Shown: piece after piece, positions 6,166-23,235 of the stretch
Numbering within the stretch: position 1 is the first letter of the stretch
Layout of the letters: each line of letters begins with the position of its first letter
Source: Sphingobacterium faecale
GTDB lineage: Bacteria > Bacteroidota > Bacteroidia > Sphingobacteriales > Sphingobacteriaceae
Assembly: GCF_016746095.1 (NCBI RefSeq)
Contig: NZ_JAERTY010000004.1
Span: 1-64,000 of the forward strand
Direction: 5' to 3'
DNA length: 64,000 nt
Program-made: the position numbers and the translations under genes
The notes under the pieces: generated by a model
Databases searched by the model: none
What the model was told of the DNA's origin: nothing
What the model saw: only the letters and a program-made list of their open reading frames with translations

Positions 6166-6184
6166 TAATAATTTAAACCTCAAA

Positions 6185-8603: not shown

Positions 8604-10889
8604 CTAATTGTCATAAAAATCATTGATTAGATTTTGGATTTCCTGATCAGTGCTCTGAATTTTTTCAACGGCTATAGTAATAGTATTTCGACTTTCAAAC
8701 TCTAGAAGTGTTATTGAATTTCCTACACTAGTATCAAAACAATCTTGCTGTCCCCAACAACTCTTTGCATACTCAATATAACTAAGTTTCTTAACCGCAT
8801 ACCCACATATTGAGTTGCCTATTGAGAAAGGTTGATCTTGATTTAATTTATTTTTATTACAATCATCATAAGAGGCTAAGCCATTACCATCTTTAAGTCC
8901 GCCTCGACCGTCGCAAAAGGCGAGAAGTAGTTGTTCTTTTTCTGCTTTTAGAACCTTAACCAAAAGCCATATTTTTAAATGCCTAATCGCAGTAAAGTTC
9001 TCGTCTGTAATGATTGTTTCAGTTATCGGAAGTAACTCCCTTATACGATTTTTTAATGTTTCTATTATCTCCTGTTCATTGTTTAGACTAAACAAACAAA
9101 CGTAAAAATCGTCTTTTAAATAATTAAAATAAGACAGGTCTTCTTGGTTTTTCCACGAAAACCAAGCTCCCTGCATTCCCCTCGTATTATAAGGCTTAGT
9201 CAATCGACTGTTCTCCGTTAAAACTCGGTATAACCGTACGTAATTAGAAAGAGTAGAAGTATTTTGGCTCCGATCAGGGTCATAGCAATTATATAGCAAT
9301 TCAAATGTATTATATACTTCTTCTAAATAGTTATAACTGTATTCCCGCCCTTCATTTGCAATCCAAAGTGGTGTCAAATCCCCCATTAAATCGCTATGGT
9401 CTTCCCAATACTCTACCTCCGATTTGTGCTCTTTTTTTAGCAGCCGCTTTAATTGTTCATCCAACGTAAACCACTCTTTCAATTCTACATTAGCAATGCT
9501 CTTAAACAATAAAGGTTCGCTAGATTGTATTTTGAAGACAAGAACTTCTTCTTCCTTTTCCGAGAACTCGATCAACTGAACAATATGTCTCCAATCGACA
9601 TCATTACCCCGCTTACGTTTTTTGTCAAAATGATTTTTCCTTAACCGCCTAGCGAAATCAGGAAAAAATTGAGGATTAGGATATTTTTCCAAATATACAA
9701 TCAATGGTAATATCAAATCTAAATCGACATCCCTAAACCAAGAAACAGAAATACTTTCATTTTTGATTGTTTTTAAAACTTCAACAACATTCTCCGAACT
9801 GCAAAGTTCAATTGTCCGCTGAAAAGCTTTAAAATAACTGTGTATTGTAGATGGGGCTAAACTTATTTTCCAGCGGTTAACTTCAGGGTTTTCATCATTA
9901 TTTTCGTCTACTTTAGGTTGCTTAGAAAATAACTCTCGCGGATTTAAAGGATAAGCCTTTTTACTTTTCCAACTTCTCTCTTGCAACAACCGGATCTGCC
10001 AATACCATATAAAAAAGTCATTGATCCCGTCATCAGAAGTATACTCATCTTCTTTTCTATTTTGCCAAAACCACTGTTCTCGCTCTTCCCACTCTTCAGA
10101 TGCTATTCTTCGTTTTTCTTTGTCAACAATATTACCTATCAATATCGGTTTTAAATTTTCTGTTGCTGACAGTGGTTCTCCTGTCGTATTTATAATTACA
10201 AAAGTTTCTTCTCCCTGGCTTCTAGTCCCCATATCGTAATATAACAGTCCTAGTTTACTGTTGATGAATTCCCCAAACCTAGGATAATCAAAATCTAACA
10301 TTTTGTCAAATGTCTCCTCGATAGTCTCTATAGCAGCCAAAATACTTTTAATACTTGGATCGAGATCATACTCTGAGAAATACCACGAAGAAGTTCTTAT
10401 TTTAGAATGCGAACTTCCATTTTCTGACTGAAGAAAATATTGACATACCAAATCACTAAAAAAATAAAGAGTACTTTCTCTAATAGAGTATTGTAGATAA
10501 GGTAATCTATCATTTTCGAGTTCGTCATTTGAGATTAAGTTACTTTGAAAACAGTTACCGCTTCTCTTATTTATAATTCCTAAGATGAGAAACAATGTAG
10601 TCAAACGCTGTTGTCCATCACAAAGCTGAATGTGGCACTTAGGGTTCTCATAGCCATAAATCAAACCTAGGGTTAAACTATTATTCGAATTTTCTAGATA
10701 TAGCTCGATTAGATTTCCAAGAAATCCGGAAACAAGTTCGGAGTACTTCTCGGTATCTTTATTCCATGCCCTATCTCCCCAACAATAATCCCTTTGTAAA
10801 TCGGGAATAATGACTTTATTATTATTTGTAAAAAGAGTAGCCAGTGTGTATTCTTTCCCACTCTCTAATATATTATTCTGAAATACCAT
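8604..10889 (-). CDS. DUF262 (GmrSD/SspE-like NTPase) protein
   Basis: This 761-residue protein has the DUF262 signature: IPDLQRDYCWG at 28-38 and CDGQQRLTTLFLIL from about 90. DUF262 carries the DGQQR nucleotide-binding motif of GmrS and SspE. No DUF1524 HNH was found in the long C-terminal part, which is unrecognised. The start overlaps the end of the upstream DUF262-DUF1524 gene by 17 nt, so the two are translated together and may form a complex. It is very AT-rich. It may be an effector that senses modified DNA, perhaps the Ssp phosphorothioate. Confidence 0.75.
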   Translation of the reverse strand: MVFQNNILESGKEYTLATLFTNNNKVIIPDLQRDYCWGDRAWNKDTEKYSELVSGFLGNLIELYLENSNNSLTLGLIYGYENPKCHIQLCDGQQRLTTLFLILGIINKRSGNCFQSNLISNDELENDRLPYLQYSIRESTLYFFSDLVCQYFLQSENGSSHSKIRTSSWYFSEYDLDPSIKSILAAIETIEETFDKMLDFDYPRFGEFINSKLGLLYYDMGTRSQGEETFVIINTTGEPLSATENLKPILIGNIVDKEKRRIASEEWEEREQWFWQNRKEDEYTSDDGINDFFIWYWQIRLLQERSWKSKKAYPLNPRELFSKQPKVDENNDENPEVNRWKISLAPSTIHSYFKAFQRTIELCSSENVVEVLKTIKNESISVSWFRDVDLDLILPLIVYLEKYPNPQFFPDFARRLRKNHFDKKRKRGNDVDWRHIVQLIEFSEKEEEVLVFKIQSSEPLLFKSIANVELKEWFTLDEQLKRLLKKEHKSEVEYWEDHSDLMGDLTPLWIANEGREYSYNYLEEVYNTFELLYNCYDPDRSQNTSTLSNYVRLYRVLTENSRLTKPYNTRGMQGAWFSWKNQEDLSYFNYLKDDFYVCLFSLNNEQEIIETLKNRIRELLPITETIITDENFTAIRHLKIWLLVKVLKAEKEQLLLAFCDGRGGLKDGNGLASYDDCNKNKLNQDQPFSIGNSICGYAVKKLSYIEYAKSCWGQQDCFDTSVGNSITLLEFESRNTITIAVEKIQSTDQEIQNLINDFYDN

Positions 10890-12582
10890 AGTCTTTCTTA
10901 AAGCGTCTTAAAAAGTTTATTTGATTTTCTTCTATATCCTTTTTAGTCCAATCGGATTTTGAAAAAACCGCTATAGAATGAAGTAAGTTTCTACTTTTAA
11001 AACTTTCATTTACATTAAAATATATATCTTTTTTCTCAATAAATGGTTTGTCACTGAATTTTGAGTTTTCATTTTTATCCAAGAGGACTAGATTTCCAAT
11101 ACTATGTTCCGAACATTGCTCCAAAGAGTCTCTATTCAACCAACCTGCCCCGGTAGGTTCAATATCCAAGAAATTATTATTTCCATCAAAATAAGAAATC
11201 AGTTCACTTGTTTCATCTATAGAAACCTTGGAATAATAGGCTTTCGACTTAGGATGTATATGTTCAAGTGATTTATCACCGTAAATACTGAAGTCAAATT
11301 TTCTTCCCTTGTTACCAAACAACTTATTATCCTCTTCTACATTCAATCTTAAAAACTGCCTTAAAGCCAAGCTATTGTAGTTCCCATAAACAAATTCATT
11401 CGACAAATACCTTAGAGCAAGACGTGCCTTATCTTCCTTTGCGTGTTCTCCTTCTTTTAATTGTCCTTCTTTAATAATTTCCTTATGTGTCGCCCCTACA
11501 AGCCTCCATTTCGCATATTCGCTTAATTCTTCCGTATTTGACTTTTTTAAAAAGAAAAAATTAATGATATCAAAAGTATCAGTCGTACCACCTTCTGAGC
11601 ATAGTAAAGCGAGTTTCAAGTAGTTATGAGCTTTAGGTTCTTTAAGAACGTCCTCAAAAGACTTTTGTAAATGACGTAACTCTTTAAATATATCTGTAGC
11701 TGTCTTCTCATTCAGTAATTTTTTAAAATTATTAAAACTTACATCGATATTTCTAGGATTGTATTTAAAAAAATAGAACTGAAGTAAGAAACCTAACGGT
11801 TTGGTTGTACTAAAAAAATCTTGAACATCTTCCCGGTTCCACCAATATAGCCATCTATCCCACTCTCTGGCATGCCGACTCCGTTTAGATACGACTTCCC
11901 ATTCTTTTGTAATATTATCTTGATTATTATTTAAATCTTTAGCAATTGAAACAGGATTAGAAAGAGAAATCTGTCTGAGTATTTCTGCTTTTATGAGCTC
12001 TTCTGGAAGCATAATAGCCTTAGCACCATTCATCATAGTGAACGTCTTCGTTGCTTTATCAGCATCAATTACGATATATAAAATATTAACTTTTTGGAGG
12101 AGAAAATTTAAGAAAAATTGTTTATCTACTCCACTTAATGTGTTTTCTATTTGTCCAATCGCTTTTTTGAAATAGAAAACATCTTGGTTTTGATCGGCGG
12201 GGTCAAAGCTATGGTAATCAAAATTACTATCCTTTAAGTTAGAAATGAATTCTTTAGATTTCTCTCGAATGTCATAACATAAGTCAATCTTATTAAATAA
12301 GCTTATATCCAAAAACCAAAGGATAAGATATAGTGTTGTAGTACGTTGCTGCCCATCAATCAAAATGATTCGATTGTCTTCTTCGCATACTGTAACTCCC
12401 TGTAAGAAATAGTTTTTATCTCTCTGAGCTTTAATCAGGTCTACGCATAATTTTTCAACTGCGGACAAATCACCCTTTTTCTTAACTGCCCATTTAAATC
12501 CTCTTTGATAATTTGGGATTACAAATTGCTTTTTCTGTGTAAAAAAATAATCTCCAATACTTTTGAAACTTGCGTTACTCAT
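10873..12582 (-). CDS. DUF262-DUF1524 (SspE/GmrSD-like) nuclease
   Basis: The N-terminus has FVIPNYQRGFKW (about 20-31) and LIDGQQRTTTLYLIL with DGQQR at 76-80, so DUF262. The C-terminus has EHIHPK at 440-445 and IGNLVLLDKNEN at 495-506, so the DUF1524 HNH-like nuclease with its His and Asn ligands. The two-domain order is that of SspE and fused GmrSD type IV restriction factors. At 569 residues it is shorter than characterised SspE proteins. It is first in an operon with the second DUF262 gene. It is a candidate restriction partner for the Ssp modification or an independent type IV system. Confidence 0.78.
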   Translation of the reverse strand: MSNASFKSIGDYFFTQKKQFVIPNYQRGFKWAVKKKGDLSAVEKLCVDLIKAQRDKNYFLQGVTVCEEDNRIILIDGQQRTTTLYLILWFLDISLFNKIDLCYDIREKSKEFISNLKDSNFDYHSFDPADQNQDVFYFKKAIGQIENTLSGVDKQFFLNFLLQKVNILYIVIDADKATKTFTMMNGAKAIMLPEELIKAEILRQISLSNPVSIAKDLNNNQDNITKEWEVVSKRSRHAREWDRWLYWWNREDVQDFFSTTKPLGFLLQFYFFKYNPRNIDVSFNNFKKLLNEKTATDIFKELRHLQKSFEDVLKEPKAHNYLKLALLCSEGGTTDTFDIINFFFLKKSNTEELSEYAKWRLVGATHKEIIKEGQLKEGEHAKEDKARLALRYLSNEFVYGNYNSLALRQFLRLNVEEDNKLFGNKGRKFDFSIYGDKSLEHIHPKSKAYYSKVSIDETSELISYFDGNNNFLDIEPTGAGWLNRDSLEQCSEHSIGNLVLLDKNENSKFSDKPFIEKKDIYFNVNESFKSRNLLHSIAVFSKSDWTKKDIEENQINFLRRFKKDYGISE

Positions 12583-12742: not shown

Positions 12743-12985
12743 TTATTGATAAATCACTTTCTCTTCTCCTTTTGAAAAAATAACACCTCGCTCGTACATC
12801 TTTTTGTATATATACTCCTGCCTGATCAAAGCCCTTTCAAATCCAGCTGCTTCATTGTGCCGCTAAATCAACCGACTGACATCTTCATCGCTGATAATGG
12901 TGTTTGTAAGAGAAAGATGTTCGTTTGGAAAGATGTGACCGTAACTGGGCGTAGGCTCTTCCGTCTTGTTAAAATCTGTATTCAT
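12743..12985 (-). pseudogene. Decayed paralogue of the small membrane protein at 13934-14266
   Basis: Reading leftward from an ATG at 12985, the segment matches the 13934-14266 gene in GHIFP-E-LSL-NTIIS and, downstream, in the R-H-N-E-A-GFER, RQEYI-KK and GVIF stretches. The copy lacks the transmembrane segment, and a glutamine codon has become TAG (12864-12866). The reading frame is otherwise intact to a TAA at 12743. The operator-like repeat at 13039 is retained upstream. The flanks 12583-12742 and 12986-13111 show no other gene. Confidence 0.75.
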
Positions 12986-13038
12986 AATGTGATATTTATA
13001 GCTTTTTGTCTGATATACAGCAAAGGTGCTCTGTGATA

Positions 13039-13055
13039 GCGACAAAGCGTGTCGC
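13039..13055. promoter_or_regulatory. Operator-like inverted repeat, WYL-1 family site 1
   Basis: GCGACA-AAGCG-TGTCGC is a perfect 6-bp inverted repeat with a 5-bp spacer. The same pattern is found at 14304, 16156 and 16200. Here it lies upstream of the decayed membrane-protein copy and, on the other side, upstream of the gene at 13112. Confidence 0.6.
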
Positions 13056-13111: not shown

Positions 13112-13522
13112 ATGATCAATGAACAAATAAATAAGCTATCGGATGAGCTCAAAAAGGTGGCAAGCTATTTTGAAGAGGCGCCTTTTGGAGGTGGTGCTAA
13201 ATTTTTAAAAGATGATATCGACCTCAGCACGATAGATAGCCCAAATGATTACCTGAAAATCATGGAGGAGATGAAAGAATTGCTACGACAATCGAGAATA
13301 TTGTTTCTCCGGAGTGTTCTCGACAAGGTATGTCTCGAGGAAAACAAGCTATACTTATTTGACTTTCCTTATCAAGCAGGTATGGCATACGATGCCGTAA
13401 TCAAACAGAATGGATCATTCTTTCTTCGTGACGAAGATGGTCATTATCGGGAGATTTTCTCAAGTGAGGAATTTGTCTCTTTTGTCGACGATCAATATTG
13501 GGAGCTCTACCAAACGGTATAG
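13112..13522 (+). CDS. Hypothetical protein, 136 aa
   Basis: This is an acidic, soluble protein with no signal or membrane segment. An N-terminal helix (INEQINKLSDELKKV) is followed by a glycine-rich turn (APFGGGAKFL) and a C-terminal half rich in aromatics (LYLFDFPYQAGMAYD, EEFVSFVDDQYWELY). The family is not recognised; immunity-like small proteins have this general look, but nothing decides it. An operator-like inverted repeat lies 57 bp upstream, so it may belong to the WYL-1 regulon. Confidence 0.6.
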   Translation: MINEQINKLSDELKKVASYFEEAPFGGGAKFLKDDIDLSTIDSPNDYLKIMEEMKELLRQSRILFLRSVLDKVCLEENKLYLFDFPYQAGMAYDAVIKQNGSFFLRDEDGHYREIFSSEEFVSFVDDQYWELYQTV

Positions 13523-13546: not shown

Positions 13547-13798
13547 CTACAAGGCAGGTGCGTGTTTTCCCTTGGCTGCGCCATTGGGGTGTCGCATGCA
13601 GGAAGCACCTGTCAAAGCTGTTAGATTACTATAGTTAGTGCCACAATACTTGCAGGTATACTGCGATTTTTCGCTGCCCTCATAGAGTTTGTGCTTGCCT
13701 TTTGCAGCACCATTAGGATGCTTCATGCAAGAAGCATTTGTAAGGCTGGATACGGAGGAATATTTAGTCCCACAGTATTCACAATAAAAATTTGCCAT
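13547..13798 (-). CDS. Small protein with two tandem C-C-C-H zinc-finger repeats
   Basis: This 83-residue protein consists of two near-identical 43-residue repeats. Each has Y-C-x2-C-GTxYS then L-T-x-ASC-M-x-HPNGAAKGKH. The putative zinc ligands are Cys6, Cys9, Cys24, His27 and Cys49, Cys52, Cys67, His70, that is C-x2-C-x14-C-x2-H. No catalytic domain is present. A nucleic-acid or protein binding role is likely from the fold. The DNA repeats are diverged enough to be an old duplication. It sits between the 136-aa gene (convergent) and the small membrane protein gene (same strand). Confidence 0.65.
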   Translation of the reverse strand: MANFYCEYCGTKYSSVSSLTNASCMKHPNGAAKGKHKLYEGSEKSQYTCKYCGTNYSNLTALTGASCMRHPNGAAKGKHAPAL

Positions 13799-13933: not shown

Positions 13934-14266
13934 CTACTCCTCCTCTACCCTTTCGAAAATAACACCTAGCTCGTACATCTTTTTGTGTATATACTCCTGC
14001 CTGATCAAAGTCCTTTCAAATCCACTAGCCTCATTGTGCCGCTGAATCAACTGATCGACATCTTTATTGCTGATAATGGTGTTTGCAAGAGAAAGCTGTT
14101 CCTTTGGAAAGATGTGTCCGTGATCGGGCATCCAATGAAATGAAAGCATAAAAAATACGGCAATAACAAGGATCGTCTTGAGCCATTGCCCTACCCGATT
14201 GGGCCTATAGGCATTGTGCACGGATGGTGCTGTCTTCTCGTTTTGTTGGCTGGTGTTGGTTTCCAT
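13934..14266 (-). CDS. Small single-pass membrane protein
   Basis: This 110-residue protein has a hydrophilic N-terminus, one transmembrane helix (roughly residues 28-46, VGQWLKTILVIAVFFM) and a charged C-terminal tail with GHIFPKEQLSLANTIIS and a predicted helix. The family is not recognised. The start at 14266 is preferred over the ATG at 14296 because a TACTTTAG -7-like box lies between them on this strand. An operator-like inverted repeat (14304-14320) is just upstream of that box. A decayed paralogue is at 12743-12985. Confidence 0.6.
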   Translation of the reverse strand: METNTSQQNEKTAPSVHNAYRPNRVGQWLKTILVIAVFFMLSFHWMPDHGHIFPKEQLSLANTIISNKDVDQLIQRHNEASGFERTLIRQEYIHKKMYELGVIFERVEEE

Positions 14267-14303
14267 AATTTTAATCTGTTGTTTGCTAAAGTACAATGCC
14301 TAC

Positions 14304-14343: not shown

Positions 14344-15000
14344 TTAACCCGTCGTTATCATCTGCTGGCAGACGTGGCGATGTACAAGATCGAATGCCTG
14401 GTCGAGGGCCATACCATCGGGCTGCTGTCTGTGTACCAGCGCCGGGCTGTCTATTAAAATAATATTAGACTGTTCGGACAGCCATTGACGATCTAAATCT
14501 GAAAGGACACCGTAGCCTTCAAATCTAAAGGGGATACGCAATACCCAGCGAAAAGCACGGGTATAGGACTGCCTCAATAGATAGCTAACCATGGGCTCGC
14601 CCCATAATCCTGTCAAAACAGCCTCGGGGTGCATCGTTGTAAAAAGACCTGTGAGATATCTGTCATCTATATCTACCAGATTGTATTTAAGCCCTCCCTG
14701 TTCTTTAAGCTGTAGCAATAAGGATGACATACCTTCTCCAAAATAGGGAAAAGTGATATCTCCTACCTGCCACTGTATGGTAGCGGAGAATGGTACAAAC
14801 TGTACATCGGGCGGTATACTGTAATTTTCGGTATGATGAATATATGCCAACTCGTCGATTCGGTATTCCTGATACAGTAGCTGGCATATCTGTATACCAT
14901 CGCTGCCTATGCCGATGTAACGTATCTGTCCAAAATCAGGCAACCCGGCACTATCTAAATAAAACTTTATGTTCATTAACATAGATCTATATCTTATCAT
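14344..15000 (-). CDS. Degenerate FtsZ/tubulin-like protein, partner of AAA ATPase
   Basis: Aligned by eye, this 218-residue protein follows the FtsZ N-terminal domain. IRYIGIGSDGIQI (26-38) sits where FtsZ has its first glycine loop. LTGLWGEPMVSYLL (129-142) sits where FtsZ has GGGTGTG and the following helix. RIPFRFEG (155-162) matches the FtsZ KPFxFEG strand. ALDQAFDLVHRHV (198-210) matches the helix leading to the T7 loop. The protein stops there, so the C-terminal domain is missing and the GTP-binding signature is not intact. Its ATG overlaps the stop of the AAA gene (TAATG), so the two are translationally coupled. The homology call is tentative; otherwise it is an unrecognised Rossmann-like protein. 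Confidence 0.5.
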   Translation of the reverse strand: MIRYRSMLMNIKFYLDSAGLPDFGQIRYIGIGSDGIQICQLLYQEYRIDELAYIHHTENYSIPPDVQFVPFSATIQWQVGDITFPYFGEGMSSLLLQLKEQGGLKYNLVDIDDRYLTGLFTTMHPEAVLTGLWGEPMVSYLLRQSYTRAFRWVLRIPFRFEGYGVLSDLDRQWLSEQSNIILIDSPALVHRQQPDGMALDQAFDLVHRHVCQQMITTG

Positions 15001-16130
15001 TAAGCTATCTTGAATCCTACAGCTCTGTGGCTACTTACCGTGCGCTGCTGTGGCTGCTCATCCTGATGGAAAATAGCTGCCAGCGACATAGCTTCGCTGA
15101 TGTGTGTGTCGTAGCCGAGGGAATCGGAAAGGACCTGTGCTTTATCCCTGGCCAATAGCCCGAACTCGTACTGGGCGATGAGCCTGCCTTTGCGCAGGAG
15201 CGCTTTGTCCACCCGTGATAGATCGGTATTGAAAGTACAGACAAACTGTATGCCTAGGCTATCGGCCAGTAGGCCGTCGGTAAAATTGAGCAGTGCAGAT
15301 ACTGCCGACATGCCCTGCACCTCGCGGTCGATCACCAGATTCTCGGCATCTTCGATAACAAAGATGGAATTGGGGTGTTCAATAAAAAAGGTCAGTAGCT
15401 GTGGGCCTGCTAGATCCTGTGCCAACTGTACGGGTACGAAAATAACTTCTTTGTCTATGTGGTGTATGAGATGCCGTATATAGCTGGTCTTGCCGGTGCC
15501 TGGCTTGCCGTGAAGTAATACGATGCCTTTGTCTTTTTCTAAACGTAACCGCGACTGTATGATTTGATCTATATCCTTGAAATCGTCGTTATAATGACGG
15601 TCGATATCTATTTCGGGCTTTTTGATATCCATACGCTGGGTGTCGAGATCATTTCGATACTGAACCATAAAGGATACTTTGGCGTCATCGAATTTTTCTA
15701 CCTGCTGGAATTGCTGTAGTGCGTCCCATAGCTGATGGATCTGTTGTTGTGGATAGCAATGGTAATAAAAGTAGATGCTATTCCTATTAAAGTCTATGAT
15801 AAGCATAAGACCTCCCGAGATGAATAGGTATACTAAGTCGAAAGTCATCATTTTCTGCTTGTCATCGAAGGACTTTTCATAATGACAGTCGATGATCTGG
15901 CCACTAAACTGTTGTAAAAGCCAAGGCAGACATTGCGAACAATCTAAATCATGTCTTTTTTCACTGTGTGGCATCGTACCAAAATAATGGACAAAGAATC
16001 TGGAGCTTGCGATAGTCCCATAATCGCTACTCCTGATCATGCTTACTGTTGCTAAACTGATCTCTCTCTTTTCTCCAGACAGGCAGTAGGACTGCAAATC
16101 GAGCGCGTGTGGTATGTGGTTTCCTTTCAT
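15000..16130 (-). CDS. BCS1-like AAA+ ATPase
   Basis: The C-terminal half is an AAA domain: Walker A GKPGTGKT at 208-215, Walker B FVIEDAE at 257-263, sensor FVCTFNTD at 297-303 and RKGR at 313-316, the order seen in BCS1-like AAA proteins. The first ~190 residues form an unrecognised domain with two aromatic-rich strands (YFYYHCY) and no obvious membrane span. It is co-transcribed with the FtsZ-like gene and divergent from the WYL regulator, with two operator-like repeats between them. A two-protein remodelling or defence machine is a reasonable inference. Confidence 0.78.
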   Translation of the reverse strand: MKGNHIPHALDLQSYCLSGEKREISLATVSMIRSSDYGTIASSRFFVHYFGTMPHSEKRHDLDCSQCLPWLLQQFSGQIIDCHYEKSFDDKQKMMTFDLVYLFISGGLMLIIDFNRNSIYFYYHCYPQQQIHQLWDALQQFQQVEKFDDAKVSFMVQYRNDLDTQRMDIKKPEIDIDRHYNDDFKDIDQIIQSRLRLEKDKGIVLLHGKPGTGKTSYIRHLIHHIDKEVIFVPVQLAQDLAGPQLLTFFIEHPNSIFVIEDAENLVIDREVQGMSAVSALLNFTDGLLADSLGIQFVCTFNTDLSRVDKALLRKGRLIAQYEFGLLARDKAQVLSDSLGYDTHISEAMSLAAIFHQDEQPQQRTVSSHRAVGFKIA

Positions 16131-16257: not shown

Positions 16258-17148
16258 ATGGCGGAGAAAGAAACATTGATACGGCACAATCTGATTATTA
16301 ATAAGCTACGGAGAAGTCCACTGACTTGGAAGGAACTAGATGCCTACCTAAAACAGGAATCGGAAATACAGGGACTAAAGCTTGACTTTGTGCAGCGTAC
16401 CTTCCAACGTCATATAAATGATATTCTGGAGATCTATGCTGTCTCTATAAAAAGTGACCGCAGTACAAGGAGGTATTATATTGAAGCTGATGAAGGTCAT
16501 GTGGACCGATCTATGCAGGCATTTGATATCCTGAACCTGCTCCGCATGGGGGACAATAGTTCGAACGTGGTATTATTTGAACGGAGAAGGCCGATGGGAA
16601 CGGAGCATCTGGCGGGAATATTTCACGCTATACGTAACAACCTGCTCTTGAAATTTGAATATCAGAAGTATTACGAGGCGGAGGCTGAACAGCGGAAACT
16701 ACTTCCACTTGCTATAAAAGAGGCCAAGAACCGTTGGTACGTGGTGGGGCAGGATTTGGACAGAAATGCCATGCGGGTATTTGCGGTAGACAGGATGTGT
16801 AAACTGGACTTTGGTAAGAAGCAACCAGCAAGCCGCTTTGCAAAGAATGTAGAACTGTATTTTAAGAATAGTTTTGGCGTATTACTAGCTACGGAAGATC
16901 AGGAGGTAGAAGAGATCGTACTTTCGTACTCTTCATTTCAAGGTAACTATATAAAATCGATGCCGCTGCATGAGTCACAGGAGCTATTGGTCGATAATGA
17001 GGAAGAAGTCCGGGTGCGCTTGCGGCTGTATGTGACACGAGACTTGATAATGGAAATATTATCAGTTGGCGCACAGGTTAAAGTATTAGCTCCACAAAGC
17101 CTGGCTGATACTGTAAAAGCTGAACATAAAAAGGCAATAGAGCTATGA
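16258..17148 (+). CDS. WYL-domain transcriptional regulator (WYL-1)
   Basis: The N-terminus is a winged-helix-like segment (RHNLIINKLRRSPLTWKEL, then LKLDFVQRTFQRHINDI). The middle holds a WYL domain with LLPLAIKEAKNRWYVVGQD and VFAVDRM, and a WCX-like C-terminus follows. Proteins of this layout, such as BrxR and CapW, repress defence operons by binding palindromes and respond to a ligand through the WYL domain. It is divergent from the AAA gene and overlaps the cREC gene by an ATGA. A perfect inverted repeat lies over its promoter, and three related sites lie within 3.2 kb. Confidence 0.85.
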   Translation: MAEKETLIRHNLIINKLRRSPLTWKELDAYLKQESEIQGLKLDFVQRTFQRHINDILEIYAVSIKSDRSTRRYYIEADEGHVDRSMQAFDILNLLRMGDNSSNVVLFERRRPMGTEHLAGIFHAIRNNLLLKFEYQKYYEAEAEQRKLLPLAIKEAKNRWYVVGQDLDRNAMRVFAVDRMCKLDFGKKQPASRFAKNVELYFKNSFGVLLATEDQEVEEIVLSYSSFQGNYIKSMPLHESQELLVDNEEEVRVRLRLYVTRDLIMEILSVGAQVKVLAPQSLADTVKAEHKKAIEL

Positions 17149-17798
17149 GAGAGCTACGTAACATTCGGTCTTGTCCAAATACCAACAGATTGTCGGAATT
17201 GGATAATCTACACGCTAGTGGTATTCTCGATAGTGATCAGTACGGTGTAGTGACTGCTGTCTATCAGTTATTGCGTCAGCAATTAGACTACGATCTGACT
17301 AGAAATCAATATATTCATATTTTTAACGATGCAAAACGCTATTGGTTGAACTATCTACTACGAAATGAACAGAATGCAAAGGCGGCTGCGATGATGTCTT
17401 GGACGATCCATCAATATATGCTGTGTAAGTATTTTACAGCTGGTTTGTTTTTAGATGACATTCGGGTCGTGGGTGATCTATGTAATTACTTGGATGAAAT
17501 CGCTATACTCCCCTACCTGTTGGGTAAATGGACTGTGGTACGCACCTATGAAGACTTTGTGCAACGTATAACGATGGATGATTCTTATCGCAGGGTTTCT
17601 TTGGATCATGACTTGGGCGAAGACCCAAACGGCCAAGAGCTGCCATCTGGCTATGATGCTATAAAGTGGCTCGTCGAATATATATTAGATGAAAATCATC
17701 CTATACCAGAAGTTTTTTGTCATTCGCAGAACCCAGTAGGCAAGGCGAATATTATGGGATATTGGCAAAGTTTTCAAAACAGCGGAGGGAAAAGTTAA
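17145..17798 (+). CDS. cREC (cyclic-phosphate processing receiver-like) protein
   Basis: The C-terminal ~115 residues match the cREC domain, predicted to process cyclic phosphates in nucleotide-signalling systems: LFLDDIR, WTVVRTYEDFVQRI, RVSLDHDLGEDPNG, GYDAIKWLVEYI and HSQNPVGKANI, with the acidic pairs kept. The first ~95 residues are helical and unrecognised. It overlaps the WYL regulator by 4 nt (ATGA), so the two are co-translated. A role in defence signalling is inferred. Repeat copy R1 follows directly. Confidence 0.65.
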   Translation: MRELRNIRSCPNTNRLSELDNLHASGILDSDQYGVVTAVYQLLRQQLDYDLTRNQYIHIFNDAKRYWLNYLLRNEQNAKAAAMMSWTIHQYMLCKYFTAGLFLDDIRVVGDLCNYLDEIAILPYLLGKWTVVRTYEDFVQRITMDDSYRRVSLDHDLGEDPNGQELPSGYDAIKWLVEYILDENHPIPEVFCHSQNPVGKANIMGYWQSFQNSGGKS

Positions 17799-17799
17799 G

Positions 17800-17925
17800 T
17801 TTATGTTAAGATTTAGAAACACGATACTATCGGCATAGCTTTTGCCGTTATATCAGTATTCATAATTTAGGTTAATAATTGGTTAGTTAAAAATCCCTGA
17901 GGATCCCCGCTTCAGGGATTTTTTT
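17800..17925 (+). ncRNA. Dispersed RNA-like element, copy R1
   Basis: The order is TTTATG, N19, TACTATCG (17825-17832), inverted repeat CGGCA/TGCCG (17831-17847), the invariant core with GGTTAATAATTGGTTAG, and terminator TCCCTGA...TCAGGGA followed by seven T (to 17925). The promoter spacer differs entirely from copies R2-R5 while both boxes and their spacing are kept. The upstream GTAACC box of other copies is lost. If transcribed, the RNA would be about 90 nt. It starts right after the cREC stop codon. Confidence 0.6.
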
Positions 17926-18012
17926 GTGATTTCGTTTCTGATTACAAGATGTACTGTCGAAGTTCCCGATAGTTCTGAACCGGATCGAGCTGTTCTTGGA
18001 AACGGGGCATAA

Positions 18013-18135
18013 GAAAATGGATCACCCCTGAACTGGCGCACTGAGATAACTAACAAAAACACTTTAGAATACTTCGATGTATGGGAAAGAGTAAACAACT
18101 TAGGTTTTAATAACACCACTATAAAAAAGCATTAA
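18013..18135 (+). pseudogene. Possible KilA-N-like fragment
   Basis: An open frame of about 40 codons with no good start reads LNWRTEITNKNTLEYF then VWERVNNLGFN, resembling the tail of KilA-N domains (NW...NT-EFLG-WE-LNNP-FN). Upstream sequence back to R1 is non-coding in this frame. It ends in TAATG, overlapping the next small ORF. This is a weak call from one motif. Confidence 0.3.
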
Positions 18136-18287
18136 TGGACTGGCAATACTTTGACTTTAATACTCTTAAACCTAACGGCAAATTATTTGCTCTCAAAAAG
18201 CCTAAAGATAAGTCGATTGTCACTATTAAAAGATGGCCTATTTTTGCAAACCCAGACCGCGTTTACAAATTTGAACTGCCGTCTTAA
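18135..18287 (+). CDS. Small ORF, 50 aa, unknown
   Basis: It encodes 50 residues beginning MDWQYFDFNTLKPNG and ending KFELPS, basic in the middle (LKKPKDKSIVTIKRW). It starts at the ATG that overlaps the preceding fragment's stop. No family is recognised. It may be part of the same broken gene. Confidence 0.3.
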   Translation: MDWQYFDFNTLKPNGKLFALKKPKDKSIVTIKRWPIFANPDRVYKFELPS

Positions 18288-18305
18288 GACCAATTTTAAA
18301 CAAAG

Positions 18306-18337
18306 TTTGCACTTTTAAACATAAGTGCTTACATTTG
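18306..18337 (+). promoter_or_regulatory. Strong Bacteroidota promoter upstream of the Abi gene
   Basis: TTTG (18306-18309), N20, TACATTTG (18330-18337) is a full match to the -33/-7 consensus. Transcription would start near 18342, directly before the hairpin at 18348 and about 80 nt before the abi start codon. Confidence 0.75.
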
Positions 18338-18347
18338 TACTAACAGT

Positions 18348-18388
18348 ACACGCCACGCTACCCATAAGAACAGCGTCCCAGGGCGTGT
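18348..18388 (+). ncRNA. Structured leader or small RNA before the Abi gene
   Basis: ACACGCC-ACGCT pairs with AGCGT and, after a CCCAG bulge, GGCGTGT: an outer 7-bp and an inner 5-bp stem with a 12-nt loop, both perfect. It is followed by CTTTTGCTTT, a moderately U-rich tract, so it can be an intrinsic terminator ending a ~50-nt RNA or an attenuator. AbiF-type proteins are reported, as I recall, to pair with a structured RNA encoded just upstream, which fits this position. Confidence 0.55.
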
Positions 18389-18423
18389 CTTTTGCTTTAT
18401 AACCATATTGTAAAGGATAACCA

Positions 18424-19341
18424 ATGTACACCAAGCAAGCTTTTACCATCGTCCAACAAATAGCTCAGTTGCAAGAGCGAGGATTGATTGTCAATGAGTC
18501 CGATGATGCAGAACATTATCTTTCACACATTAGCTATTATCGACTTGCGGGTTATTGGTGGCCTATGCAACAGGATAAGGTAAATCACATCTTCAAGCCA
18601 GGCAGTAAGTTTGGTGATGTTATAGCCTTGTACAACTTTGACAGAGAATTGAGAATATTACTTTTCGACGTTATTGAAAAAATCGAAATTAGTTTAAGAA
18701 CTAAACTCATCTATCACCTGTCACATGAGTTTGACCCATGGTGGTTTCAAAACTTTGAAATCTTCCAGAGCGCCCCTGACCTTGTTAAAACATTATCAGC
18801 CATCGAAGAAGAAATCGGCCGTTCAAAAGATACATTCATCAAAGAGCATAAGAAGAAACATAAAGATGATGGAAGATTTCCCCCTGCATGGAAATCATTG
18901 GAACAAACTAGTTTGGGAGCACTATCCAAACTATATGGAAACCTTAAAAACAATATTATTTCAAAGGACATCATTGCAAAGGAATTTGGAACGGTAAATC
19001 ACACTTACCTGCCCAGTTGGTTACAGTCTATCTCTCAAATAAGAAATTACTGCGCTCATCATAGTAGATTATGGAACAGAAATTTGCCTGGAAGTCCTAA
19101 ACTTCTCAGTAATCCACCACATGCATGGATAGTAGATATCCCCAAATCTCATGAATTTCAATATCTATACATCCATCTCTGTTGTATGAAGTACTTACTT
19201 AACATAGTACAGCCTCAAAACCATTTTACCCCCAGACTAGAGGGCTTATTCGTAAAGTATCCCAATATAGATCCTAATGCGCTAGGCATGAAAGAAAACT
19301 GGCAAAATGAAGAATTATGGCAATATCCAAACGAAACATAA
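18424..19341 (+). CDS. Abi_2 family (AbiD/AbiF) HEPN protein
   Basis: The sequence has the Abi_2 signature: YLSHISYYRLAGYW (32-45), FDRELRILLFDVIEKIEISLRT (72-93) and IRNYCAHHSRLWNR (206-219), with the HEPN RNase motif R-x4-H at Arg207 and His212. Abi_2 proteins cause abortive infection through RNA cleavage. The gene follows a strong promoter and a terminator-like hairpin, and overlaps the NADAR gene by 25 nt, so the two are coupled. Length (305) is usual for the family. Confidence 0.85.
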   Translation: MYTKQAFTIVQQIAQLQERGLIVNESDDAEHYLSHISYYRLAGYWWPMQQDKVNHIFKPGSKFGDVIALYNFDRELRILLFDVIEKIEISLRTKLIYHLSHEFDPWWFQNFEIFQSAPDLVKTLSAIEEEIGRSKDTFIKEHKKKHKDDGRFPPAWKSLEQTSLGALSKLYGNLKNNIISKDIIAKEFGTVNHTYLPSWLQSISQIRNYCAHHSRLWNRNLPGSPKLLSNPPHAWIVDIPKSHEFQYLYIHLCCMKYLLNIVQPQNHFTPRLEGLFVKYPNIDPNALGMKENWQNEELWQYPNET

Positions 19342-19949
19342 GAATATACAATCGCAATGAAGTCATTACATTTTCTAAAACGAATGAGGCGTTTGGAGAG
19401 TTGTCAAACATGTCGTCTTCTTTCCCTCTGTTTGTAAATGACATTATTGTACCTAGTAGCGAAGCACTGTATCAGGCAATGCGCTATTCGCTTTTCCCTA
19501 AAGCTCAAAATGAAATCATTCGCCAGGCTAGCCCTATGACGGCCAAGATGATCAGTAAAAAATATAATCCTTACTCGAGACAGGACTGGGAACTGATCAA
19601 GCTAAAGGTGATGCGGTGGGTGATGGAAATAAAGCTTTCGCAACACTGGAACAAACTGGCTCCTATACTGGAAGAAACTGGAAATAAAGCAATCGTGGAG
19701 TTATCTTATAAAGATCAATTCTGGGGTGCTAAGAACATAGGAAATAACCAATTGGAGGGCAAAAATGCCCTTGGTAGGCTGTGGATGGATCTCCGGGAGA
19801 AGCATGTATTAACGAACAACAAAATAGAGTGTGTGGCTCCACTAGCCATTGCTGGATTTAGGCTATATGATCATGACATCGATACGATATGCGATGAAGA
19901 CCATTTCCTCAACAACGAGGAGGAAGGTCAACTGTTTGCTGTCGTTTAG
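19317..19949 (+). CDS. NADAR (YbiA-like, DUF1768) N-glycosidase family protein
   Basis: ITFSKTNEAFGELSNM, SSEALYQAMRY, KMISKKYNP, the DW pair and FWGAKNIGNNQLEGKNALGRLWM are the NADAR motifs in order. NADAR enzymes cleave glycosidic bonds of ADP-ribose or riboflavin intermediates, and some reverse DNA ADP-ribosylation made by DarT-like toxins. It begins inside the end of the Abi gene. No DarT homologue was found in the window. The C-terminal ~25 residues are acidic and extend past the core. Confidence 0.82.
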   Translation: MAISKRNIRIYNRNEVITFSKTNEAFGELSNMSSSFPLFVNDIIVPSSEALYQAMRYSLFPKAQNEIIRQASPMTAKMISKKYNPYSRQDWELIKLKVMRWVMEIKLSQHWNKLAPILEETGNKAIVELSYKDQFWGAKNIGNNQLEGKNALGRLWMDLREKHVLTNNKIECVAPLAIAGFRLYDHDIDTICDEDHFLNNEEEGQLFAVV

Positions 19950-20004
19950 CAAACGTATTAATACAAAACGACAAGGAGAAGACTAGTTGAGGTTTTTTAC
20001 TCTA

Positions 20005-20235
20005 TTATGCTCCAATATCTGCGTTTTGGTTGACTTGTTTTATCAAGCCGATTAGTTTAATAACATTATTTTCGTCGAATAATCCTATTACTCCGCTGTC
20101 ATCAAGTTCGGTGAATGGTGGTTCCATGAGATCTGCTGAGTCGAGGTAGCCGTTGGTGACGAAGTAGCGGATGACGGTATCCATAAACTTGATCTGCTTG
20201 GCGGATAGGTTGGCTTCGCCAATAAAGCTGGTTGC
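20005..20235 (-). pseudogene. hsdR: C-terminal remnant of a type I restriction subunit HsdR
   Basis: Read leftward, 77 codons lead to a TAA: FIGEANLSAKQIKFMDTVI, then FVTNGYLD, EPPFTELDDSGVIGLF and IGLIKQVNQNA. This is the usual end of HsdR proteins (LS-x-Q-x-F, PPFT-x-x-D-x-G-x-x-G-x-F). The frame is closed upstream by TGA at 20236-20238 and there is no suitable start. A former type I R-M system was probably deleted here. 19950-20004 holds nothing else. Confidence 0.65.
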
Positions 20236-20250
20236 TCATGATGTTTTTGA

Positions 20251-20361
20251 TTAATAGTGTAAAAAAGAATCTAAGATAATCTCACCGTTACCAGATTTTA
20301 ACCTAAAGTAGTATTGCGAACTCCTTGAACTCACGAATACTTCAAATTTTGCATTTGACAT
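20251..20361 (-). CDS. Short DUF1508 (YegP-like) ORF, probably truncated
   Basis: It encodes 36 residues beginning MSNAKFEVFVSSRS then YYFRLKSGNGEIILDS, the first part of a DUF1508 domain. It ends early at LHY where the domain normally continues with a SEGY turn and a helix, so it is likely truncated. A 23-bp operator-like sequence shared with the WYL-2 promoter lies 26 bp upstream (20387-20409). Confidence 0.5.
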   Translation of the reverse strand: MSNAKFEVFVSSRSSQYYFRLKSGNGEIILDSFLHY

Positions 20362-20386
20362 ATTGAGAACAAAGTACGGGACCTAC

Positions 20387-20409
20387 TATGCAGTACATCT
20401 GCACAGTAA
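20387..20409. promoter_or_regulatory. WYL-2 operator-like site A
   Basis: TATGCAG-TAC-ATCTGCACAGTAA contains the inverted repeat TGCAG-N5-CTGCA and matches 20 of 23 positions of the site at 21672. It is upstream of the DUF1508-like ORF. The stretch 20410-20514 shows no other feature. Confidence 0.55.
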
Positions 20410-20514
20410 AAAAGAAATATAAAAAAATAAAAACAGGCCTTAAGAAGGTCTTAAAAGACGTTTATTATTGAGGAAACAGGAAAGATGGGAGGAATTACGC
20501 GATTCTACTGCGTA

Positions 20515-20955
20515 CTATAATATCTTTTTGTATTTGCGTGATACGGAACTGGAGTTACGCAAGCAGTCCAATACGGCCTCAAGTTCTGCTGGGAGCAGAC
20601 AGTCTACCACATTATAATGAACACCCTCGACAGGATATTGATGTTCAATAGAAGTGCGATCATAGGTATCGATCTGCTGACCATAAATAGCGGTGAGTAA
20701 TGGAAATGAAAAACCTTGCTGTCCGATTACTTGCCCCCGAACAAAGAGATAACAGTTAATACAGCCTTGGGGCACCTCGATACAGCCGTGATCTTCGGCA
20801 ATACGGTTTGGCAGATAAATCTGGCTGGAAGGCAATGAGGCTAAGATCAGCTCTCCATCTATATCTTTGAGTAAGATAAAGTACTTGTTCTTGCTGGCAG
20901 CGTCATTTTTGAAATAAAATGGCGTAAAATAAAGTATGTTTCCTGGGGTAAACAT
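20515..20955 (-). CDS. PemK/MazF-like putative toxin of a Panacea TA pair
   Basis: This 146-residue protein begins FTPGNILYFTPFYF and continues SKNKYFILLKDIDGELI, the pattern of the PemK/MazF fold (PGDIV...KxRPxLVL). The arginine usual in that strand is replaced, so the match is remote. It is 8 nt downstream of a Panacea-domain gene on the same strand. Panacea antitoxins are known to pair with unrelated toxins. A toxin role is inferred from this pairing. Confidence 0.5.
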   Translation of the reverse strand: MFTPGNILYFTPFYFKNDAASKNKYFILLKDIDGELILASLPSSQIYLPNRIAEDHGCIEVPQGCINCYLFVRGQVIGQQGFSFPLLTAIYGQQIDTYDRTSIEHQYPVEGVHYNVVDCLLPAELEAVLDCLRNSSSVSRKYKKIL

Positions 20956-20963
20956 AGTAGAGG

Positions 20964-21554
20964 CTACTTGAGTGATCTTGAGGCATTCAGATACTCCAAA
21001 TGCTGAGCATAAGCCTCTTTTCCTGCTTCGTCAAGTAAGGTATTGAAGTCTATCTTATAGTCTGTCGTGAACACACTACCATCGGACAGGCCTTCTAGTA
21101 TACCTTTCTCCTGTGCCAGAATCGTCCAGGGGGAATGTGGACCATGGGTAATGTCTACAAGCTGTGTCGCAGAAAAATGCCCGAACTGCTTGATGACGTC
21201 GTCTAGAATATTTAATTCTACATCTGAAAACTCGTCATCACTGAACTCCCTGACCGCTGAAATGTATACTCTTCCCTCCTCTGCGGGCCGCGCGGCTATA
21301 TAGTCCTGAAAAATATATTGTTCGGTAGAGCTGAAATCAAAATACAGGTCCTTGGCAACTGGCCCTAATCGCCATATCTCGAAATCTAAATTCAGGAAAG
21401 GCCGAGCACATCGACGGATCGTAGTCTCTTCCAACAAATAGATTAGCTTGAGCAGCTTGGTCTTGGATAAATCTGACACACGCTCGGCAATATACACGAG
21501 TGTATTGCCAATTTTGGCGATATCATCTTTTGTATATATATGTGGCTGACTCAT
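20964..21554 (-). CDS. Panacea/SocA-domain (DUF4065) antitoxin
   Basis: VSDLSKTKLLKLIYLLEE, RRCARPFLNLDFEIWRLGPV, FSATQLVDITHGPHSPW and the spacing between them are typical of the Panacea (SocA/GepA) domain, a helical antitoxin module. The ATG at 21554 is preferred: the upstream ATG at 21614 would add a 20-residue hydrophobic stretch not seen in the family. The gene is divergent from WYL-2 and forms a pair with the toxin-like gene downstream. Confidence 0.72.
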   Translation of the reverse strand: MSQPHIYTKDDIAKIGNTLVYIAERVSDLSKTKLLKLIYLLEETTIRRCARPFLNLDFEIWRLGPVAKDLYFDFSSTEQYIFQDYIAARPAEEGRVYISAVREFSDDEFSDVELNILDDVIKQFGHFSATQLVDITHGPHSPWTILAQEKGILEGLSDGSVFTTDYKIDFNTLLDEAGKEAYAQHLEYLNASRSLK

Positions 21555-21671
21555 TCTGTCTGGGATAAATAGTGTTTGCTGATACAAAATACGTAATTTA
21601 AAATGATAAAACAATGCTATGCCAAAATGATCGTCTCCATTGACGATCTATGTCCAAAAGTAGACCATGGG

Positions 21672-21694
21672 TATGCAGCCTATCTGCACAGTAA
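21672..21694. promoter_or_regulatory. WYL-2 operator-like site B
   Basis: TATGCAG-CCT-ATCTGCACAGTAA has the same TGCAG-N5-CTGCA inverted repeat as the site at 20387. It is 37 bp upstream of the WYL-2 start codon and about 118 bp upstream of the divergent Panacea gene, so it could control both. Confidence 0.55.
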
Positions 21695-21730
21695 TTTATA
21701 TCTTTATAAAACTTTGATTTCAACTGCAAT

Positions 21731-22738
21731 ATGGCTACTAATAAACAAGCTTCGATTCGGTATAGGATACTCGACAATTGTCTCTCTAACCCACAGAAGA
21801 GATTCTCCTTTCAGGACCTCTTGGATTGCTTAGATACAGAGCTCTCGGAAATTAATCCCAACCACAAAAATATAAGCGTACGTACCCTGCGAGAGGATAT
21901 AAAGTATATGCGTAGCCCTGAAGGTGGATCTGCTCCTATAGAAATATATAAGCAAGATGGCAAGTCTTATTATCGATATGCTGATAAGGATTTTAAACTC
22001 TACAACCAGGGACTGAACTCGCCTGAGGTGCAACAATTAAAAAGTGCGATAGAAATGCTTTCTAAAATAGAGGGCCTGCCCCAGATGGGATGGATCCAGG
22101 AGATGGGCGCTAAACTCGAAGAGGTCTTTTTCTTAGAAAAAACGGATCAGCTAATCATGAGTCATGATAACAATAGATACCTAAAGGGCATTGAATATCT
22201 CGGCACTCTATTTCACGCTATTCTTTACAAAAAGAGAATTCGGATCAAGTACCGATCCTTCAACGCTACCAAAGAGACGATACATGATCTATCACCATAC
22301 CATCTACGTGAATTTAACAACCGTTGGTTTTTATTTGGATGGAATCAGGAATATAATACACTGACCAACCTTGCTCTAGATAGAATCATCGCTATCGAAG
22401 ACAGCCATTTGAAGTATATAGAAAATGATAGTTGGGATTTTTCAGCGTATTTTGAGGATATAGTTGGGGTTTCTTTTAATTCGTCTACTCTGGAAGAAAT
22501 ACAGATCTGGTTCAATGTCAAGGCCGCCCCTTATGTACTATCTAAACCACTGCATGGCTCTCAAAAGGTAGTGTCAAATGATGAAAATGGCTTAATCATA
22601 AAACTCGATATCATCCCTAATTATGAACTCGAAACCTTGATCTTATCCTTCGGCGAACGAGCCAAAGTCCTGTCTCCTGAGTCTTTTAAAAATGTAATGT
22701 ATGCTCGAGTAAAAGCTATGTATGAGGGATATGGTTAA
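21731..22738 (+). CDS. WYL-domain transcriptional regulator (WYL-2)
   Basis: The N-terminal HTH (RYRILDNCLSNPQKRFSFQDLLD then SVRTLREDIKYM) is followed by a WYL domain (IRIKYRSFNATKETIHDLSPYHLREFNNRWFLFG within 190-245, then LALDRI) and a C-terminal WCX region ending LSPESFKNVM. At 335 residues this is the common stand-alone WYL repressor type. It lies next to a TA pair and 29 bp before the macrodomain gene, with a palindromic operator candidate upstream of its own promoter. Confidence 0.85.
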   Translation: MATNKQASIRYRILDNCLSNPQKRFSFQDLLDCLDTELSEINPNHKNISVRTLREDIKYMRSPEGGSAPIEIYKQDGKSYYRYADKDFKLYNQGLNSPEVQQLKSAIEMLSKIEGLPQMGWIQEMGAKLEEVFFLEKTDQLIMSHDNNRYLKGIEYLGTLFHAILYKKRIRIKYRSFNATKETIHDLSPYHLREFNNRWFLFGWNQEYNTLTNLALDRIIAIEDSHLKYIENDSWDFSAYFEDIVGVSFNSSTLEEIQIWFNVKAAPYVLSKPLHGSQKVVSNDENGLIIKLDIIPNYELETLILSFGERAKVLSPESFKNVMYARVKAMYEGYG

Positions 22739-22767
22739 TAATCTATAAATTCTTGAATGATTACAAA

Positions 22768-23235
22768 ATGAGAGTAGAATATATAAAAGGTGACGCAACA
22801 GCCCCCACCGCAGCTGGCAATAAGATAATTGTACATGTCTGTAATGACATTGGTGCTTGGGGAAAAGGGTTCGTCATGGCTATCTCTAAAAAGTGGAAGG
22901 AACCAGCCAAACAATACAAGGCTTGGTATAAGTCGCAGGATGGATTTGAACTGGGCGAAGTACAATTCGTACAGGTAGAAGATGACACATGGATAGCAAA
23001 CATGATCGGGCAGCATAAGATCTATAGGGATGAGCAAGGTAATCCACCTATCCGCTATGAAGCGATAAGATCAGCATTAGAAAAAGTGGCTGATCATGCT
23101 CTACAGCACGATGCTTCGGTACATATGCCACGTATAGGCTGTGGACTAGCTGGTGGTACCTGGGATAAGATAGAGCCGCTACTAAAGGAATGCATGGTTA
23201 GCAAAGGTGTGCAGGTAACTGTATATGATTTTTAA
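22768..23235 (+). CDS. Macrodomain (ADP-ribose binding/hydrolase) protein
   Basis: MRVEYIKGDATAP, IIVHVCNDIGAWGKGFVMAISKKW, PPIRYEAIRSAL and MPRIGCGLAGGTWDKIEPLL are the macrodomain motifs in order, covering the whole 155-residue protein. Such proteins remove ADP-ribose from proteins or nucleic acids; the DarG antitoxin uses the same fold. The ATG at 22768 fits the family start better than 22753. It is probably co-transcribed with WYL-2. The R2 element starts 12 bp after its stop. Confidence 0.85.
   Translation: MRVEYIKGDATAPTAAGNKIIVHVCNDIGAWGKGFVMAISKKWKEPAKQYKAWYKSQDGFELGEVQFVQVEDDTWIANMIGQHKIYRDEQGNPPIRYEAIRSALEKVADHALQHDASVHMPRIGCGLAGGTWDKIEPLLKECMVSKGVQVTVYDF

Follow-up and report, generated by a model that had tools for sequence, protein, structure and literature searches.

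A BCS1-like AAA ATPase and a WYL regulator in a variable defence-type island of Sphingobacterium faecale, with a rare cargo protein possibly related to the FtsZ N-terminal domain

In Sphingobacterium faecale, a gene for a 218-aa protein overlaps that of an AAA ATPase in the midst of defence-type genes, which raises the question of whether the two form a dedicated system and of what the smaller protein is. The first-pass annotation had read the pair as a degenerate FtsZ-like protein coupled to a BCS1-like ATPase in a WYL-controlled defence cluster. The window analysed here is a 64,000-nt stretch of contig NZ_JAERTY010000004.1, in which the following features concern us.

8604..10889, minus strand: GmrSD_N (DUF262) protein of 761 aa, a possible further island member
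10873..12582, minus strand: GmrSD (DUF262/DUF1524) protein of 569 aa, a possible further island member
12761..13045, minus strand: remnant of a duplicate 120-aa gene
13112..13522, plus strand: 136-aa protein, with a homologue straight after cREC in genome G576
13934..14296, minus strand: 120-aa protein with a single hydrophobic stretch, probably a single-pass membrane protein
14344..15000, minus strand: 218-aa member of a new protein family and candidate for a GTPase-dead FtsZ N-domain
15000..16130, minus strand: 376-aa BCS1-like AAA ATPase (Pfam, fold and 67-sequence alignment)
16258..17148, plus strand: WYL-WCX transcription regulator (PF13280, PF25583)
17145..17798, plus strand: cREC (cyclic-phosphate-processing receiver) protein

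The 218-aa and AAA ORFs, their overlap and their defence-island setting are real: the two frames share one base in the TAATG on which the proposed translational coupling had been based. The 120-aa ORF follows 47 bases beyond the 218-aa ORF and starts with TTG, its first ATG lying 30 bases in, while the remnant of its second copy consists of a 60-aa ORF (12863-13045) and a 71%-identical stretch with an in-frame TAG (12761-12955). Divergently oriented, the regulator gene starts 127 bases from the AAA start and overlaps the cREC gene by 4 bases; its product combines a WYL domain (PF13280, E 3.4e-15) with a WCX domain (PF25583, E 3.8e-9). Around these genes lie SspABC-like genes, an HNH protein, the two GmrSD genes, AbiD/Abi_2, NADAR, SocA/Panacea, a second WYL and a Macro-domain gene. 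Both the defence genes and the WYL association of the earlier description were thus found, and control by WYL is suggested by gene position. Neither protein of the pair is a catalogued defence component in PADLOC, where the AAA gave only partial matches to its AAA core (E 5.6e-5 or weaker) and none over the full length of a system protein, and the 218-aa protein gave none at E 1.

Three regions of the window deserve mention in their own right. Consecutive SspC-, SspB- and SspA/DndA-like genes at 2070-7327 (PADLOC E 0, 1.4e-88 and 7.5e-140, respectively) resemble a phosphorothioation-type system. Within about 6 kb, at 17145-23235, cREC, AbiD, NADAR, SocA/Panacea, the second WYL and the Macro-domain gene form a cluster whose gene content hints at ADP-ribose and cyclic phosphates. 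The ORF at 13547-13798 encodes an 83-aa protein with two zinc-finger-like repeats, and a similar protein is encoded directly 3' of an AAA relative in another locus (L035).

The ATPase was the more readily classified of the two proteins. It matches PF00004 (E 9.7e-11) and retains Walker A (GKPGTGKT), Walker B (VIEDAE) and the FN and RKGR positions, which we take to be the sensor and arginine-finger positions, respectively; across 67 aligned AAA sequences the Walker A and IEDAE residues are invariant or nearly so. A structure model computed from these 67 sequences reached a mean pLDDT of 85.8, and the first 14 Foldseek rows obtained with it were all Bcs1 or Bacillus subtilis YjoB, at 13-17% identity and TM-scores of 0.36-0.51, values that make the likeness a distant one. 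In VIA-align the top row was YjoB (Z 15.2, rmsd 7.6, 300 residues), and because the Z values of all 50 rows shown lie within 2 of each other (13.4-15.2), aligned length rather than Z sets Bcs1 and YjoB apart. Of the 11 Bcs1/YjoB rows shown, ten aligned over 270-301 residues with starts at model residue 23-55, and the remaining one (6u1y) is a chain confined to the AAA domain; most other AAA chains aligned over about 200 residues from model residue 142-161. The BCS1-type domain that precedes the AAA core is thereby present in the model by fold. Since the best fold matches, this preceding domain included, are to Bcs1 and YjoB and the catalytic motifs are intact, the label BCS1-like was well chosen, and the modelled structure establishes a predicted BCS1 fold for this ATPase.

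The 218-aa protein was far less tractable. It had no Pfam match at E 10, its best NCBIfam and PDB matches were at E 0.26 and 0.28, respectively, and a likeness to OorC/KGOR-gamma, at E 0.26-0.28 and over residues 24-100 only, was rejected. A single-sequence structure model (pLDDT 32.6) was too low in confidence for its fold to be read. Searches with the sequence alone found only its own genome among 59 relatives and likewise among 395 genomes of the class; such searches are insensitive, the 59-genome search having missed G002, G015, G017 and G035, later shown to hold members. Among 399 genomes of the family, the single-sequence search retrieved a 373-aa homologue in G576 (pairwise BLAST E 2e-14) and, apart from the window itself, 12 further matches, all weak (E 0.012-0.087). 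The G576 protein as query weakly retrieved G002 and G570 among 93 genomes of the genus (E 0.02), with three more weak matches at E 0.041-0.097. A four-member profile searched against the 399 genomes then matched 17, eight of them strongly (E 8e-31 or better, adding G702, G035, G017 and G015) and nine weakly (E 0.006-0.05). Five of the weak matches were viewed: four belong to one GT4-like group and the fifth is an ORF that we take to be oxidoreductase-like. Our family count takes in the strong matches and leaves out the weak L222, L227, L228 and L230, of which L228 (E 0.002) and L230 also appeared among the weak rows of a further search.

The family so defined has eight members among the 399 genomes sampled, the window protein and seven diverged homologues, all in the genus of the window, and none of the eight has a Pfam match at E 10. 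In PHROGs, six families of unknown function were matched, each by one of the eight proteins only (best E 0.018), which we attribute to chance. An eight-member profile run against 247 genomes of the class gave, besides the window, four matches (E 0.002-0.006), all of which were viewed and look unrelated (presumably one RibD-like, two FtsK-like and one response-regulator-like). No relative was found by family pattern scans of viral contigs, by a pattern scan of genome contigs with the window protein only, or by tblastn of the family in plasmids. A profile of the other six members matched the window and G576 pair with probability 96 and E 4.5e-9 over 142 columns, scoring 66.2 where 200 shuffles reached at most 21.8, and when a 600-protein panel was scored with it, all family copies came first. 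With fewer sequences the link is fainter: G015 and G017 alone reached probabilities of just 15 and 8 against the window protein or G576, and hmmsearch with the six members found G576 at E 6e-6 and the window protein at E 1.9. The tie of the family to the window protein runs through G576 and through shared gene order. Since seven homologues were found, the 218-aa protein belongs to a real new family; at the level of sequence, the comparisons establish that this family exists and that its window member is more than a chance ORF.

Whether the family stems from FtsZ is a finer question. The 218-aa protein carries IGIGSDG, a GxGxxG-like start, and PFRFEG, and it ends where the alignment with the FtsZ N-domain ends, without a C-terminal domain; the GTP-binding glycine loop, GGGTGTG, is absent from all eight aligned members. 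The missing loop, the KPFxFEG-like segment and the missing C-terminal domain are therefore as the first-pass annotation described them, and the C-terminal extension of the G576 protein bears no resemblance to FtsZ either. Against a broad profile built from 15 FtsZ sequences, taken from genomes of Bacteroidota and from plasmid records, the 218-aa protein alone scored 18.8 in hhalign. Among 200 shuffles of its sequence, 12 did as well, and so did 90 of 600 conserved ORFs drawn at random (a panel that includes two copies of G576), seven of these with at least 120 aligned columns. Diverged relatives brought out more. The G576 protein alone scored 33.8 (0/200 shuffles as high) and, within the 600-protein panel, 34.0 over 138 columns, the window protein and G576 together 33.1 (0/200), and the eight-member profile 29.3 over 148 columns (0/300 column shuffles) or, in a slightly different alignment, 31.8 over 178 columns (0/200). 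Of 58 families built from the loci, one being the 218-aa family itself, none of the other 57 reached 29.3 (highest, 26.3 over 29 columns). The alignment places GVGVDG on GVGGGG and PFKFE on PFTFE, with GGGTGTG deleted. The proposed overlay on the FtsZ N-domain is thus plausible for G576 and the family profile, which align co-linearly with FtsZ and score above all shuffles, but the 218-aa protein alone lies at chance. Because FtsZ was chosen after the sequence had been seen, the shuffle p-values are flattering.

The strongest alternative is that the family is some other Rossmann-like α/β protein, an enzyme or ligand sensor beside the AAA, in which PFxFEG and GxGxxG arose by convergence. Besides the chance-level score of the window protein, it draws on the libraries searched, where no significant sequence-profile match of the family to FtsZ or tubulin was found and where PDB sequence searches with single members or profiles returned no FtsZ or tubulin chain, the best hhalign probability against FtsZ being 30.7, for G576. 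The FtsZ signal is also uneven: the four members that stand outside defence loci show none (79/200 shuffles as high), and G015 and G017, with 19/200 shuffles as high, align only around P-L-K-L-E-G. Moreover, the family profile scored 46.2 over 73 columns against the GT4-like group, above its FtsZ score. That group had itself been fetched from the 399 genomes by the family profile, however; a second GT-like family of these loci, which had not been selected in this way, scored just 17.8. Kinship with GT-B glycosyltransferases was provisionally rejected, the higher score resting on profile-retrieved sequences and 73 columns only, and it retains some likelihood. What opposes a non-FtsZ origin is the same co-linear register, held over 131-178 columns in G576, in the window and G576 together and in all eight members, above all shuffles, and the fact that the best of the 600 proteins against FtsZ was a family member, G576, the next unrelated protein scoring 28.6 over 23 columns. 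On balance, the resemblance of the family to FtsZ is suggestive, not proven. We put its derivation from FtsZ at roughly even chances, and the Rossmann-like alternative as a whole at not far short of even.

The genomic settings of the eight members bear on a second alternative, that the family consists of ordinary, genus-specific chromosomal proteins with no part in defence, one of which was caught behind the AAA by chance. Half of the members fit such a description, those of G002, G570, G702 and G035 (L206, L207, L218 and L219) lying outside defence loci, with ppnP upstream wherever the contig reaches (G002, G570 and G702, 3/3) and, in three of the four (G570, G702 and G035), a VF530-type gene downstream; in the stretches read around them, no homologue of the window WYL, AAA, cREC, GmrSD, 120-aa or 136-aa genes was found. 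The full AAA, moreover, is present in only one of the eight partner-bearing genomes, that of the window (G000). The other four members, in the window, G576, G015 and G017, argue against a chance capture, since each of them adjoins a WYL gene of one and the same type, with cREC and a pair of GmrSD genes in the vicinity, and since the family gene overlaps a neighbour in each, by TAATG in the window. DUF6140 also occurs in the G576, G015 and G017 loci (for G015, Pfam was applied to one GmrSD, and the other GmrSD and DUF6140 were assigned by similarity). G576 likewise has cREC downstream of its WYL gene, as do G017 and G015, where a phosphoesterase gene separates the two. In G015 and G017 the overlapping neighbour encodes a homologue of the 120-aa protein, found in three of the eight partner-bearing genomes (G000, G015 and G017). 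We regard a bystander without a defence role as rather unlikely.

The same survey disposes of the pair as a fixed two-gene system. Outside the window genome, the AAA is represented in G576 by its N-domain only, has no match in four genomes and has weak partial matches in G035 and G702 to a different 660-aa frame, which we take to be another protein. The G576 neighbour (L202 6080-6517) is a 145-aa ORF that overlaps the FtsZ-like gene and matches the AAA N-domain only (hhalign probability 93.7; the score of 52.1 compares with a maximum of 20.8 among 100 shuffles), and no ATPase domain follows it. Given the full AAA in 1/8 and the 120-aa gene in 3/8 of the partner-bearing genomes, a two-gene AAA and FtsZ system, as first envisaged, was abandoned. 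A toxin-antitoxin-like or effector-chaperone pair unrelated to FtsZ, the 218-aa protein being neutralised by the AAA, would accord with the translational overlap and with the lone N-domain kept beside the partner in G576 as if it were a contact domain, but it is unlikely, since G015 and G017 hold the partner with no match to the window AAA in the genome at E 0.001 and the AAA is therefore not needed there to tolerate it.

What does recur is the AAA together with WYL. Relatives of the AAA are common in Bacteroidota, with 329 places confirmed among 441 candidate stretches of genome contigs, and they also occur on viral contigs, many of them long (81 confirmed of 264 candidates, 80 of which were kept for analysis, the last rows being weak). 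Excerpts of PMC7824862 likewise report BCS1-type AAA proteins in jumbo phages. The best 80 of the 329 loci were surveyed up to 7 kb per side on either strand, many contigs being short, with neighbours labelled by phmmer at E 1e-4 and families checked by Pfam on examples. A homologue of the window WYL gene was present in 43/80 by raw count; an RNase_T-type exonuclease was present in 26/80, GmrSD in 25/80, a calcineurin-like phosphoesterase in 17/80 and DUF6140 in 3/80, and cREC in none. In at least 11 of these 80 loci (L013-L092) the order was AAA, a small gene or none, exonuclease, GmrSD and WYL, and the gene immediately 3' of the AAA varied widely among relatives. Neither WYL nor GmrSD was found in any of the 80 viral loci, three of which had cREC; WYL therefore goes with the cellular AAA loci. 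From these counts and the variable downstream gene, it follows that the recurrent unit is AAA plus WYL plus exchangeable genes and not AAA plus the 218-aa protein.

Our preferred reading is a variable defence-type island whose recurring core in Bacteroidota is a BCS1-like AAA and WYL, and in which the 218-aa protein is rare cargo best understood as a GTP-blind remnant of the FtsZ N-domain; we hold it tentatively, as a whole somewhat below an even chance. The more solid novelty is the new small family and the AAA-WYL island with its swappable cargo. The first-pass annotation knew of no described system with this pair, and our literature search found no published description of the pair or of the AAA-WYL island either, a weak negative given that subscription journals were mostly uncovered. 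The arrangement of AAA, cargo and WYL offers a handle on new Bacteroidota effectors, namely the genes adjoining the two core genes.

How such an island might work is something that we infer at every step beyond gene order and fold. Regulators of the WYL type sense nucleotide ligands, and rings of the BCS1 type move or retain folded proteins. WYL could hold the operon down until a nucleotide-type infection signal appears, a signal that cREC may clear, since excerpts of PMC7824862 and PMC9503650 propose that cREC processes cyclic phosphates. Relief of WYL would allow expression of the AAA and its cargo, and the BCS1-like ring, acting on folded clients, would hold or release an FtsZ mimic that meets FtsZ or an FtsZ-targeting phage protein, with a division stop or a triggered response as the outcome. 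FtsZ is a plausible site of conflict because, according to excerpts of PMC13423816, T7 Gp0.4 sequesters FtsZ and CapRel-Ebc senses the complex. On this view the 218-aa protein may be an FtsZ mimic blind to GTP, serving either to block division or to sense phage inhibitors of FtsZ. In its most specific form, the proposal would make it a GTP-blind decoy that the ATPase retains or sets free and that traps phage FtsZ inhibitors or caps host FtsZ, within an undescribed Bacteroidota platform of fixed BCS1-like AAA and WYL and swapped effectors; this full combination we consider distinctly improbable.

Among known proteins, BCS1 and B. subtilis YjoB share with the window ATPase an AAA core and preceding domain by fold, a similar length and conserved Walker A, Walker B, sensor and arginine residues. 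The window protein differs from both in its low identity (13-17% in the first 14 Foldseek rows) and in its place within a WYL island with variable neighbours, and it cannot have the mitochondrial role of BCS1; no literature on YjoB was found in a search conducted mostly without subscription journals. The cREC-WYL contexts in excerpts of PMC7824862 and PMC9503650 are alike in associating cREC, proposed to act on cyclic nucleotide ends, with WYL, but those excerpts contain no BCS1-type AAA with an FtsZ-like partner. Excerpts of PMC7159879 list rare FtsZ/tubulin domains among the cell-division-type effectors of prokaryotic conflict systems, with MinD- and FtsK-type effector domains predicted to be inactive; the systems described there centre on MoxR-vWA or GTPase modules, in contrast to the BCS1-like AAA and WYL of the window.

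With the FtsZ/tubulin superfamily, the 218-aa family possibly shares an N-domain, with co-linear segments and PFxFE in register, but it differs in having neither the GGGTGTG loop nor the C-terminal (T7 loop) domain nor a significant library match. FtsZl1 and FtsZl2, by contrast, possess the GGGTG(S/T)G loop missing from the family, and FtsZl1 is associated with genes for vWA, kinase, GTPase and OmpA proteins (excerpts of PMC2875224). Two Pseudoalteromonas megaplasmids, NZ_CP077771.1 (L245 6845-8984) and NZ_CP032091.1 (L248 6846-8984), carry an annotated WYL gene followed directly by a diverged 366-aa FtsZ, with GGGTGTG intact in the one sequence read, and one of these loci is near McrC-family and CRISPR ring-nuclease genes. 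WYL-linked FtsZ paralogues may hence be a wider theme, on the slender basis of two records from one genus. A functional parallel to the proposed mimic is CapRel-Ebc, which also ties a phage FtsZ inhibitor to immunity but, in the excerpts of PMC13423816, relies on the host's own FtsZ and on a toxin-antitoxin fusion; that text contains none of the words decoy, FtsZ-like and paralog. If the window partner is a truncated, nucleotide-blind FtsZ, its locus would be a defence locus that uses a copy of the phage target and not the target itself, and would provide a small natural FtsZ-directed protein for study.
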